NCBI RefSeq assembly: GCF_030817275.1
Contig: NZ_JAUSZD010000002.1
Location: forward strand, 2,046,001-2,110,000
Origin: Paenibacillus sp. V4I7
GTDB taxonomy: Bacteria > Bacillota > Bacilli > Paenibacillales > NBRC-103111
Direction: 5' to 3'
DNA: 64,000 bases
The notes below the pieces were generated by a model. It worked only from the letters and a program-made list of their open reading frames with translations, searched no databases and was not told where the DNA came from. Shown piece after piece: positions 15,264 to 18,611 of this stretch. The position numbers and the translations under genes are program-made. Positions within the stretch are counted from its first letter, which is position 1. Each line of letters begins with the position of its first letter.

Positions 15264-16232
15264 ATGAACGAACGTATATTAGAGCTGTTCCAAGAGTTCC
15301 CGGAAGCTTATGTTTCCGGTGAGGAAATCAGCCGCCGACTTAACGTTAGCCGCACTGCAATCTGGAAGCATATTGAAGAGCTTCGATCGGCAGGCTATGA
15401 ATTTGAAGCTGCGCCGCGTAAAGGGTACCGATTGCGGAGTAAGCCTAATTCATGGCAAGTGAACGAATTATTGAGTGGATTGAAAACCAAGGTTCTCGGT
15501 CAGAAAATCCATGTTTACGGGGAAGTCGAATCTACACAGACGATAGCACATGCTCTCATTGCATCAGGTGCTCCTGAAGGCACGATTGTGCTGGCAGAGG
15601 CACAGACAGCAGGAAGAGGCCGAATGGGGCGAACGTGGCATTCTCCGGCCGGCAAAGGGATCTGGATGAGTCTGGTGTTAAAACCGCGCATTCCGGTCTA
15701 TTTCATGCCTCAATTAACGCTGCTTAGTGCGGTAGCGCTATGTCGATCCATCCAGAAGGTTTGCCAGGTAGACATCGGCATCAAGTGGCCTAATGATCTT
15801 CTAATTAAAGGCAAGAAGGTAAGCGGTATCTTACTTGAAAGCAGTGGGGAAGATGAACGGCTCAAGTATGTAGTTGCAGGAATTGGCATCAGTGTAAATT
15901 TGAAGCAGGAGGATTACCCCGAGGAACTTCGGAATATCGCGACTTCACTTGCGATTGAGTCGGGGACTGACATCCCAAGAGAAAGTTTGGTACAAGCTTT
16001 TCTTTTAGAATTTGAAGATCTCTATGCGCTTTATATGGAGAAGGGCTTCGCCCCAATCCGTTTGCTGTGGGAGGCTCTCAGTGTAACTTTGAAGCGTCCA
16101 ATCCGCACGCATACCCCTGCAGGTGTCATTGAAGGTATTGCTGATTCGTTGGATGATTCCGGGGCATTAACGGTAATCACACAAGCTGGAGAGAAAATAA
16201 AGATCTATTCCGGAGATATTGAACTGAAGTAA
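15264..16232 (+). CDS. birA: Bifunctional biotin-[carboxylase] ligase / biotin operon repressor
   Basis: BirA makes biotinyl-AMP, attaches biotin to acetyl-CoA carboxylase and represses biotin genes. The 322-residue protein has an N-terminal helix-turn-helix (residues 17-42, GEEISRRLNVSRTAIWKHI). The ligase domain carries GRGRMGRTWHSP (adenylate loop, near residue 116) and KWPNDLLIKGKKVSGIL, and ends in the small SH3-like C-terminal domain. The ribosome site is poor (GTGAG only). The 228 bases before it, from cca, show no recognisable element other than the cca terminator. Confidence 0.95.
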   Translation: MNERILELFQEFPEAYVSGEEISRRLNVSRTAIWKHIEELRSAGYEFEAAPRKGYRLRSKPNSWQVNELLSGLKTKVLGQKIHVYGEVESTQTIAHALIASGAPEGTIVLAEAQTAGRGRMGRTWHSPAGKGIWMSLVLKPRIPVYFMPQLTLLSAVALCRSIQKVCQVDIGIKWPNDLLIKGKKVSGILLESSGEDERLKYVVAGIGISVNLKQEDYPEELRNIATSLAIESGTDIPRESLVQAFLLEFEDLYALYMEKGFAPIRLLWEALSVTLKRPIRTHTPAGVIEGIADSLDDSGALTVITQAGEKIKIYSGDIELK

Positions 16233-16255: not shown

Positions 16256-16264
16256 TGGTATAAT
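16256..16264 (+). promoter_or_regulatory. Extended -10 promoter of the panB leader
   Basis: TGGTATAAT, a perfect -10 preceded by the TGn extension; the -35 (TATCAA at 16236) is weak, as expected for an extended -10 promoter. The start would be near 16271. Confidence 0.7.
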
Positions 16265-16270
16265 AGCAAG

Positions 16271-16477
16271 ACAAGGCGGTATCCTTAAAGGAACTGCACT
16301 TGCAGCTTGACGATTGTAGTTTGTTTACAAAGGAATAGGACTTGAAACAAGATGTTGGATTCTGCTCTGAGCCTTATGGGACCGAGACAGAGGGATCATT
16401 GGATTCTTTCTGCATGCGATCCTTTTAGCTCTTAGCTAAAAGGTTTTTTTATTTTATATGAGGAAGCTGGGATAACA
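16271..16477 (+). promoter_or_regulatory. Structured 5' leader of panBCD, candidate pan RNA motif with attenuator
   Basis: A leader of about 205 bases lies between an extended -10 promoter and panB. It contains several possible helices: TTGTA / TACAA (16314-16331), CTCTG / CAGAG (16365-16392, with single A opposite A inside) and GGATC / GATCC (16393-16422). It ends in an intrinsic terminator, with the panB ribosome site 20 bases further on. Promoter, folded region, terminator and gene in this order is the layout of a riboswitch or attenuator. A conserved RNA named the pan motif is known upstream of panB in Firmicutes; I cannot verify the match base by base. Confidence 0.5.
16421..16450 (+). 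terminator. Terminator within the panB leader
   Basis: Ten-base stem CCTTTTAGCT / AGCTAAAAGG with loop CTT, then seven T. It ends 27 bases before the panB start, so it either ends a short leader RNA or acts as an attenuator. Confidence 0.85.
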
Positions 16478-17335
16478 ATGGAACAACGTAAGGCGCTTAC
16501 GACAGCTAAGATGAGAAAAATGAAGCAAGATGGCGTTCCCATTACAATGGTAACTGCTTATGATTATCCATCAGCCCGCTTAGCGGAAGAGGCTGGCATT
16601 GATGTCATCCTAGTAGGTGATTCTCTGGGGAATGTAGTACTAGGCTACGATTCAACCTTGCCTGTCACTATGGATGATATGGTTTACCAGACGCGAGCCG
16701 CGGTGCGTGGAGCTTCAAATACGTTCATTGTAGCGGATATGCCTTTCTTGACTTACCATGGCAGCTTGGACACGACATTTCGGGGAGTAGCCCGATTAAT
16801 GCAAGAGGGCGGAGCAAAAGCGGTTAAGCTGGAAGGCGGAGCTGAGATTGCAGCTACTGTCAAAGCGATTACGGAAGCCGGTGTACCGGTCGTCGGACAT
16901 TTGGGTTTAACTCCGCAATCCGTACATCAACTTGGTGGATTCCGCGTACAAGGACGCAGCTCCGAACAAGCGGAGAAACTGCTCAGTGATGCTAAAGCTC
17001 TTGAGAAAGCGGGAGCTTTCGCGGTGGTCTTAGAGCTGGTGACGGATGAACTGGCTGAATGGGTAACGAAGCAGCTATCGATTCCTACGATTGGAATTGG
17101 TTCTGGGATTCATTGCGATGGCCAGGTGCTTGTATATCATGATCTTCTCCAGTATGGTTCTGACAGTGCTGCCAGAAAGTTCGTAAAAGCATACGCGAAT
17201 ATAGGGGAAACTATTCGTGCAGGTATTGGGGAATATGTGAAAGAAGTGAAAGCACGGGCATTCCCTGCGCCAGAGCATACGTTTCATATGGACAACGATG
17301 TTGTTGAATACTTATATGGCGATAAGGAGAAGTGA
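16478..17335 (+). CDS. panB: 3-methyl-2-oxobutanoate hydroxymethyltransferase
   Basis: PanB makes ketopantoate from 2-oxoisovalerate and methylenetetrahydrofolate, the first step to pantothenate and coenzyme A. The 285-residue TIM-barrel protein shows MVTAYDYPSARLAEEAG and DVILVGDSLGNVVLGYDSTLPVT near residues 24-65, with the metal-binding Asp residues. KLEGG and GHLGLTPQSVHQLGG follow, with the catalytic region around the conserved Glu in VLELV. GAGGAAG precedes the ATG. It is the first gene of panBCD; the downstream start overlaps its end. Confidence 0.97.
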   Translation: MEQRKALTTAKMRKMKQDGVPITMVTAYDYPSARLAEEAGIDVILVGDSLGNVVLGYDSTLPVTMDDMVYQTRAAVRGASNTFIVADMPFLTYHGSLDTTFRGVARLMQEGGAKAVKLEGGAEIAATVKAITEAGVPVVGHLGLTPQSVHQLGGFRVQGRSSEQAEKLLSDAKALEKAGAFAVVLELVTDELAEWVTKQLSIPTIGIGSGIHCDGQVLVYHDLLQYGSDSAARKFVKAYANIGETIRAGIGEYVKEVKARAFPAPEHTFHMDNDVVEYLYGDKEK

Positions 17336-17340
17336 GAAGC

Positions 17341-18222
17341 ATGGAAGCGATCCAGACCATGGAAGTTATTCATTCAATTGCTGATTTGCGTTCTCGTATA
17401 AGGGACTACCGACGCAAGAACGACCAATCTGTTGGGTTTGTGCCGACAATGGGTTATTTACACGATGGCCATGCAAGTTTGCTGCGCAAAGCACGTACTC
17501 AAAGTGGACTTGTCGTGCTAAGTATATTTGTTAATCCGCTCCAGTTCGGTCCAGGTGAGGATTTCGAGCGGTATCCGCGAAATACGGAACGGGATTTGCA
17601 ATTAGCGGAAGCCGCGGGCGTTGACCTAGTGTTTATGCCATCTGTGAGCGAAATGTATCCGACACCGACGCGCACTACGGTCAGTGTGACAGGTCTTACC
17701 TCCAGACTTTGCGGAGCATCGCGCCCTGGGCATTTTGATGGGGTCGCAACTGTCGTTAGCAAGTTGTTTCATATTGTACAGCCTGATCAAGCGTTTTTTG
17801 GTCTGAAGGATGCCCAACAGGTTGCTGTCATTGAGCAAATGGTGCAAGATCTCAATCTCGGCATCGAGATTGTTCCATGTCCTATTTTGCGTGAAGCAGA
17901 TGGGCTGGCCATGAGCTCGCGCAATGTGTATCTTTCTGAGGAAGAGCGTAAGCATGCTTTAGTTTTGTCTCAATCCTTACAAAAAGCAAAGGCATTTGTA
18001 GAATCACATACAACTTTCACACCACAGGAGCTCGAAAGCTTGGTCAGCCAACATATTGCGACTACACCTTTAGCTCTGATTGACTATGTAGAGGTACTAG
18101 CTTATCCGACATTAGAACCTTTTGAAAATAGCCATCATACCCAATCTATTATCATTGCTTTGGCTGTCAAATTCGGCAAAACGCGTTTGATCGATAATTT
18201 AATTTTACAAGTAGGGAAGTGA
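17341..18222 (+). CDS. panC: Pantothenate synthetase (pantoate--beta-alanine ligase)
   Basis: PanC condenses pantoate with beta-alanine using ATP. The 293-residue protein contains [14 protein letters not shown] (the HIGH-type ATP motif), [31 protein letters not shown] and SSRNVYL (the KMSKS-like loop). AAGGAGA at 17324-17330 suits ATG 17341 (spacing ten); a GTG at 17332 overlapping the panB stop is too close to the site. It is followed by panD with close spacing. Confidence 0.96.
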
Positions 18223-18227
18223 CTTCC

Positions 18228-18611
18228 ATGTTTCGAACAATGATGAAAGCTAAAATACACCGGGCAACCGTTACGGAAGCGAATTTGAATTATATCGGAA
18301 GCATTACGATTGATGAAGATTTGATCGATTTGGTTGGTATGTTACCGAATGAGAAAGTGCAAATTGTGAACAACAACAATGGTGCACGTCTGGAAACGTA
18401 TATAATTCCGGGACCTCGCGGCACAGGTGTGATTTGTTTAAATGGGGCTGCAGCTAGGTTGGTTCAGACCGGTGATACGGTTATTATTATTTCTTATGCA
18501 ATGATGACCGATGAAGAAGCTAGGAAGCATCAACCAACGATTGCCATTATGGGCGAAAACAATAAAGTTGCGCAGCTTCTCAAAGAAGAAGAGCATTCCA
18601 CCATCCTTTAA
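18228..18611 (+). CDS. panD: Aspartate 1-decarboxylase precursor
   Basis: PanD makes beta-alanine from aspartate for pantothenate synthesis. It is a pyruvoyl enzyme that cuts itself between Gly24 and Ser25. With ATG 18228 as start the sequence YIGS places Gly at 24 and Ser at 25, exactly the family position, which settles the start against the overlapping GTG at 18219. Other landmarks are the lysine and arginine pockets in [14 protein letters not shown] and the NGAAARL segment. It has 127 residues and is the last gene of panBCD. Confidence 0.97.

Follow-up and report, generated by a model that had tools for sequence, protein, structure and literature searches.

In the stretch of the Paenibacillus sp. 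V4I7 genome analysed here (64,000 nucleotides, below called the window), the genes panB, panC and panD are located directly 3' of a leader containing the pan motif, as in known pan loci (Pfam). The following features, all on the forward strand, were revealed at this locus:

15264–16232, +, gene of a BirA-type biotin-protein ligase (HTH_11 and BPL; PF03099, PF08279, PF02237), ending 40 nt 5' of the pan motif
16256–16264, +, extended -10 promoter TGGTATAAT, recognised from the sequence; its position, -14, is the commonest in relatives
16273–16394, +, whole pan motif RF01749 (45.4 bits, gathering score 36.2, model 1–92 complete; Rfam alignment)
16273–16301, +, P1 hairpin, arms 16273–16283 and 16291–16301, bulged A at 16281 and 16298
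16302–16361, +, linker between P1 and P2, 60 nt
16362–16390, +, P2 hairpin, arms 16362–16373 and 16379–16390, bulged A at 16370 and 16387
16391–16394, +, conserved single-stranded pan tail AGGG (Rfam alignment), belonging to the predicted antiterminator
16389–16397, +, predicted 5' strand of the antiterminator, AGAGGGATC, with its partner at 16418–16426 (9 bp, -8.4 kcal/mol; comparative support)
16418–16426, +, predicted 3' strand of the antiterminator, GATCCTTTT; 16421–16426 are in common with the 5' arm of the terminator
16421–16450, +, intrinsic terminator, 10-bp stem (16421–16430 with 16434–16443) and then seven T
16460–16466, +, GAGGAAG, likely ribosome-binding site of panB, inferred from the sequence
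16478–17335, +, panB, ketopantoate hydroxymethyltransferase (PF02548, 375.7 bits)
17332–18222, +, panC, pantoate-beta-alanine ligase (PF02569, 370.5 bits)
18219–18611, +, panD, aspartate decarboxylase (PF02261, 178.4 bits)

A preliminary description of this DNA had placed an extended -10 promoter, a leader with several possible helices, a strong terminator and panB one after another, and sequence and Pfam analysis agreed with it in both coordinates and order. Of 200 dinucleotide shuffles, 196 folded less well than the leader (z -2.49), and the terminator has a 10-bp stem at 16421–16443 with seven T behind it. The window promoter was absent from the output of a simple promoter scan, which demands a -35 match too. 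It should be mentioned that TTGGATTCT with CTGC close behind it occurs twice in the leader, at 16355–16365 (the start of P2) and at 16399–16413 (just past the tail), and that similar copies are visible in several congeners.

Comparison of the window with all 4227 Rfam families revealed pan (E 1.1e-4) as the sole match at the gathering threshold in the 64 kb; when the whole genome was searched with the pan model, the E value was 3.6e-6. The Rfam search recommended in the preliminary description thus returned a full-length match above the gathering score, and the two tandem hairpins suspected there, P1 and P2, are both part of the Rfam pan alignment; each carries two bulged A, one per strand. 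The window shares with the family these hairpins, their position before panB-panC-panD and the complete model match; it differs in a longer linker, with 29 bases inserted relative to the model, and in nothing essential. The window copy is a true, ordinary member of the pan family, and both the original observation and its first interpretation hold. No second copy was found in the genome by the family model or by the exact P2 pattern, which a diverged or long-linker copy could escape. Two other matches in the leader were rejected: a PyrR binding site (RF00515) at 16318–16453, whose 22.8 bits against a cut-off of 54 (E 0.45) correspond to chance, and SCARNA18, far under its cut-off.

We examined the hairpins in 142 non-redundant motifs, in which the arms of P1 and P2 were placed by conserved letters alone; the letters used for placement are not independent evidence. 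A MAFFT alignment of the hairpin segments had nearly no loop-length gaps and was rejected; in it, paired cells made up no more than 49.6% for P1 and 55.9% for P2. With the letter-based placement, 1289 of 1420 cells were paired in P1 (90.8%; mean of 500 shuffles 72.1%, maximum 74.2%) and 1360 of 1562 in P2 (87.1%; mean 79.3%, maximum 80.9%), and pairing fell to 33–46% when the partners were slid by one or two positions. These counts include 11 of the 142 motifs in which P2 was poorly placed (letter score at most 6 of 11). Two-sided changes were observed in 10 of 10 pairs of P1 and in 9 of 11 pairs of P2. Each of the P1 pairs without anchor letters (5-4, 4-5, 3-6, 1-9 and 0-10) exceeded all 500 shuffles; four of the 11 P2 pairs (9-2, 7-3, 5-5 and 3-7) fell in the range of the shuffles, pair 9-2 being unpaired in 74 of the 142 motifs. 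The four bulged A were kept in 139, 141, 133 and 140 motifs; in the Rfam alignment, either consensus hairpin has five pairs between its bulges. In the window P2 is weak (-5.6 kcal/mol), with U opposite C at 16368/16383 and G opposite A at 16371/16381. Judged by this comparison of sequences, P1 and P2 exist. The preliminary description had made its reading depend on covariation in relatives; in the 142 motifs it is strong, and the bulged A are retained.

The linker, 70% A+T, measured 10–77 nt in the 142 motifs (median 34.5) and 98–171 nt in four congeners missed at the search threshold. In one of these (L288, 1225–1328, genome G016 of the same genus) the linker contains 8.6 tandem copies of a 12-nt repeat; in the three others it is 98–134 nt long. 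At E of at most 0.001, pan was detected in 26 of 30 genomes from the genus, among them the one containing the window, and in 124 of 198 genomes of the order, 222 of 398 of the class and 152 of 398 of the phylum. A control search detected the family in Bacillus subtilis 168. Twelve genomes without a match were examined, namely the four of the genus and eight of the order's 74. P2 was present in the panB leader of every one of them, and in 11 of these leaders the pan model matched weakly, under the threshold (E 0.04 to 3.6); P1 was recognised by a strict pattern in six of the 12 and by eye also in L294, L295 and L298. Since all four congeners possess both hairpins, the figure of 26 of 30 understates the presence of pan in the genus. 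The Rfam model scores long-linker copies under the cut-off, and pan is therefore under-counted.

In total 284 copies of pan were surveyed (L171 and L206, as well as L084 and L175, are the same places, and L082, identical to L081, was left out). TATAAT was found within 26 nt 5' of the motif in 77 of the 284 leaders and in none of the equal control stretches 100 nt further upstream; TGnTATAAT lies within 30 nt of the motif in 60. The commonest position of TATAAT, -14 (28 of 77), is that of the window. As for terminators, an automatic rule gave none in 48 of 281 unique leaders. A lax rule revealed a hairpin in 33 of these 48, some of them doubtful (e.g., L147, L279, L285), and none in 15, among which a short hairpin is still visible by eye in L028, L169 and L180. 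In a few further leaders the sole terminator hairpin by the lax rule lies inside the gene.

The terminator of the window has a predicted competitor. Nucleotides 16389–16397, comprising the 3' edge of P2 and the tail, can pair with 16418–16426, six bases of the terminator 5' arm included. We analysed this pairing in 144 non-redundant leaders, obtained from 233 with a terminator by keeping hairpins at most 110 nt from the motif and then removing redundancy; a few wrong hairpins (e.g., L057, L158) were left in the counts. The mean energy of the tail with the 5' arm of its own terminator was -10.24 kcal/mol; with arms permuted among leaders, which leaves some shared ancestry in the comparison, it was -8.73 (sd 0.18), and none of 5000 permutations was as low. 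Shuffled arms gave -7.50 kcal/mol, the tail against the terminator 3' arm -3.44, and the adjoining upstream segment against the terminator arm -6.12. An overlapping earlier set (142 unique of 167 leaders with a terminator, hairpin start at most 120 nt from the motif) gave -10.38 for own and -9.39 kcal/mol for permuted arms (0 of 2000). Individually, only 47 of the 144 leaders beat 95 of 100 shuffles. Divergent tails retain complementary arms, e.g., in L174, L097 and L171. Comparison of the leaders thus establishes, at the level of sequence, that the P2 3' strand and tail are complementary to the terminator 5' arm and covary with it, and this pairing pattern implies an antiterminator that would compete with both P2 and the terminator.

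A leader terminator and a mutually exclusive antiterminator are therefore both present in the computational analysis, and the attenuator layout proposed in the preliminary description is supported by the terminator, the covarying predicted antiterminator and the family match. One may ask whether the leader is instead an ordinary, unregulated one with a constitutive partial terminator. When the two states of the window leader were constrained, the terminator state was favoured (-49.2 versus -46.8 kcal/mol), and the unconstrained fold (-52.0) also formed the terminator, as such a leader would be expected to do. This ON/OFF comparison does not by itself demonstrate a switch, and since the terminator state is favoured, the ON state must rely on co-transcriptional kinetics. 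The family match, the covariation of the hairpins and of the antiterminator, and the retention of P2 in all 12 of the apparent non-matches examined nevertheless make an unregulated leader extremely improbable.

The position of the antiterminator relative to P2 bears on the direction of control. In 140 of the 144 leaders the pairing extends into the 3' strand of P2. Tail positions 6–10 are each paired in 78–85% of them, positions at or above the bulged A each in at most 49%, and the bulged A itself is paired in 38%, i.e., not in most. The overlap in the window is confined to the two outermost base pairs of P2, and the upper part of P2 could coexist with the antiterminator. The covariation of the P2 3' strand and tail with the terminator arm implies that locking of P2 would switch the operon off.

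Some other leaders are informative in the same respect. By eye, a terminator is missing directly past the motif, and the tail reads as the Shine-Dalgarno sequence of the next gene, in L138, L142, L145 and L147, located before panB-type genes, and in L261, L264 and L266, located before genes for ECF S-components; in L115 and L084 the tail could instead compete with a hairpin over the ribosome site. In all these geometries a binder locking P2 would turn the gene off. The geometry common to the terminator and ribosome-site forms is our main reason for assigning the bound state to OFF. The opposite arrangement, in which a bound factor stabilises the antiterminator and bound pan means ON, draws on the compatibility of upper P2 with the antiterminator in many leaders. 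It has against it that the antiterminator touches the P2 3' strand almost everywhere, that binding should block ribosomes in the seven leaders with a Shine-Dalgarno-like tail, and that repression is expected for genes leading to an end product, and we regard it as quite improbable. With regard to L261, L264 and L266, the N-terminal homology of the putative ECF S-component genes starts at ATT or ATA codons directly past the tail, so these may be non-standard start codons (by eye). The gene that follows the S-component gene (245–251 aa) matched no Pfam family (L264 protein).

Taken together, we consider it reasonably probable that the window leader is a pan-family (RF01749) transcription attenuator that turns panBCD off when the supply of coenzyme A is sufficient. 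Comparison of the leaders suggests the following course. If P2 is free to open, 16389–16397 would pair with 16418–16426, the terminator would be blocked and panBCD transcribed. If a binder keeps P1 and P2 closed, the 3' edge of P2 would be unavailable, the terminator would form and transcription would stop at about 16450. In the minority of relatives in which the tail is an apparent Shine-Dalgarno sequence, the same binding event would block ribosomes.

As to the signal, the genes found under pan are instructive. The first labelled gene of the 284 copies was panB in 161, a PanG/DUF2520-type reductase gene in 78, panC in 19, a PanS-like gene in six, an ECF S-component gene in five, birA in four, an OPT transporter gene in three, bioY in three, panE in two and panD in one; two copies had none. 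A gene of the PanB, PanG, PanC, PanS, PanE or PanD type thus comes first in 267 of the 284, and L189 has no labelled pathway gene. The labels were assigned by BLAST to reference proteins from the window and from these same loci. As any reference locus will match itself, NCBIfam was used to recheck the kinases; for the other labels one example each was checked with Pfam or NCBIfam. The BioY, ECF-S, OPT and Dus examples were above the Pfam cut-offs, and the PanS example (L214) was strong and sub-cut-off (314.1 of 400).

A pantothenate kinase gene belongs to the same gene run in 11 of the 284 copies, probably a lower bound, as at least 2400 nt of downstream sequence are available in just 99 of them; the type I kinase (CoaA) was not among the BLAST references. 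CoaX (type III) was found in the runs of L188, L192, L206, L218, L225, L246, L273 and L282, and a type II kinase in those of L199, L203 and L248. Of the gaps between labelled genes in these runs, 18 of 22 are shorter than 30 nt. All 11 kinases match NCBIfam kinase models and 10 pass at least one curated cut-off; the L218 kinase, cut by the end of the locus, reaches 238.8 bits, under the cut-offs. Some genomes contain two copies of pan, one at synthesis genes and the other at transport and kinase genes (L163 and L192 in G564; L167 and L188 in G931).

Several loci deserve separate mention. In L199, L203 and L248, pan is located before an OPT-family transporter gene and the type II kinase gene, making the transporter a candidate importer of a CoA precursor. 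In L239 (G639), pan with its own terminator is followed 134 nt further on by an amidohydrolase gene (PF07969/PF01979) whose product has a signal-like N-terminus, and then by birA; the enzyme is possibly a pantetheine- or pantothenate-related hydrolase. In the majority of the class-level loci inspected, birA lies directly 5' of pan; in L206 and L246 it lies directly 3'. It is possible that the control of biotin and that of pantothenate are linked. Given the birA or BioY-type genes that accompany pan, the case of B. subtilis PanU is of interest here: this pantothenate S-component is similar to biotin S-components, and BirA represses it (PMC11487621).

Since pan is also found before transporter genes and before genes of type II and III pantothenate kinases, the signal probably lies beyond the kinase, i.e., at coenzyme A. 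Type II and III kinases are not known to respond to feedback by CoA and so would need control of their expression; a cited work on the type II enzyme of Staphylococcus aureus has a title that agrees with this. If one common signal turns off synthesis, uptake and phosphorylation, coenzyme A or a derivative of it would, we infer, suit this role better than pantothenate. The small share of copies with kinase runs is a point against the CoA reading. That pantothenate itself (or ketopantoate or beta-alanine) is the signal would suit the majority of copies, which precede pantothenate synthesis genes of the panB, PanG and panC types. The same motif precedes pantothenate-consuming kinases, in one case (L218) within the run panG-panB-panC-panD-coaX, and there would be little sense in shutting off a consumer while its substrate is abundant; for this reason a pantothenate-level signal seems improbable. 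The signal would thus most likely be coenzyme A or a close derivative.

Two kinds of sensor can be considered. The first is a true riboswitch, in which coenzyme A (or dephospho-CoA or acetyl-CoA) would bind directly to P1 and P2 and binding would likewise mean OFF. The bulged A are nearly invariant and the regulon spans synthesis, transport and phosphorylation, as suits a CoA riboswitch; in addition, a review points to CoA as a riboswitch ligand that is conspicuously missing (PMC9971707). On the other side stand the simplicity of the hairpins and the A+T-rich linker, which varies from 10 to 77 nt in the 142 motifs and reaches 171 nt, with 12-nt tandem repeats, in one congener. Such an arrangement is better suited to two separate contact sites than to a single compact pocket. 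Furthermore, the 2010 description of the motif reads it as suggestive of a site for a dimeric protein (Weinberg et al., 2010; PMC2864571). We see direct binding as the leading rival of a protein binder, and as a possible but rather unlikely explanation. Slightly more doubtful still is the broad form of this idea, in which pan would be the long-missing CoA-sensing RNA, its bulged-A hairpins binding CoA and governing pantothenate synthesis, uptake and phosphorylation through termination or masking of the ribosome site.

The second kind of sensor is a protein. In the attenuator mechanism that we prefer, the binder would be a CoA-responsive, probably dimeric RNA-binding protein gripping the two similar hairpins; this is the least certain step. 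Protein-dependent attenuation is exemplified by PyrR-pyr and LicT/RAT, in which a leader hairpin competes with a terminator or antiterminator. Their small RNA sites and possible binding of a dimer, together with the competition in the leader, are the features that pan would have in common with them. To our knowledge, there is no known regulator protein for pan, which distinguishes it from both systems.

In the accessible parts of the literature, the 2010 description of RF01749 names only panB, panC and aspartate decarboxylase genes and contains no expression platform (PMC2864571). A transcriptome paper on Paenibacillus riograndensis SBR5 from 2017 lists pan in the 5' UTR of panB-panC-panD (PMC5670726). 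That leader belongs to the same family and, like the window, stands in the 5' UTR of an operon of the same gene order; it is listed there without a mechanism, as far as the accessible text goes. Pan-related terms are absent from the main text of Sun 2013 (PMC3766115), and in the accessible parts of the respective papers Warneke 2024 (PMC11487621) and a FEMS review (PMC12570885) do not mention a riboswitch, the regulators named by Rodionov 2019 (PMC6593275) do not include pan, and PMC8563996 contains nothing on it. In the open-access literature, most subscription papers lying outside this scope, we found no ligand, regulator or ligand experiment for pan, in line with the statement of the preliminary description that its ligand is not established, and no account of a pan antiterminator or of kinase and transporter targets.

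What the present analysis adds is a specific, testable switch mechanism and an argument from the regulon for a signal at the level of CoA. The register of the predicted antiterminator gives the exact mutations able to prove or disprove the switch, and the regulon, with its synthesis genes, pantoate and pantothenate transport and kinases, is a concrete reason to test coenzyme A over pantothenate. If a protein senses CoA, pan RNA would be a bait for finding that protein. If the RNA itself does so, the gap named in the riboswitch-ligand review (PMC9971707) would be filled. In addition, pan leaders offer a practical handle for vitamin B5 production strains.
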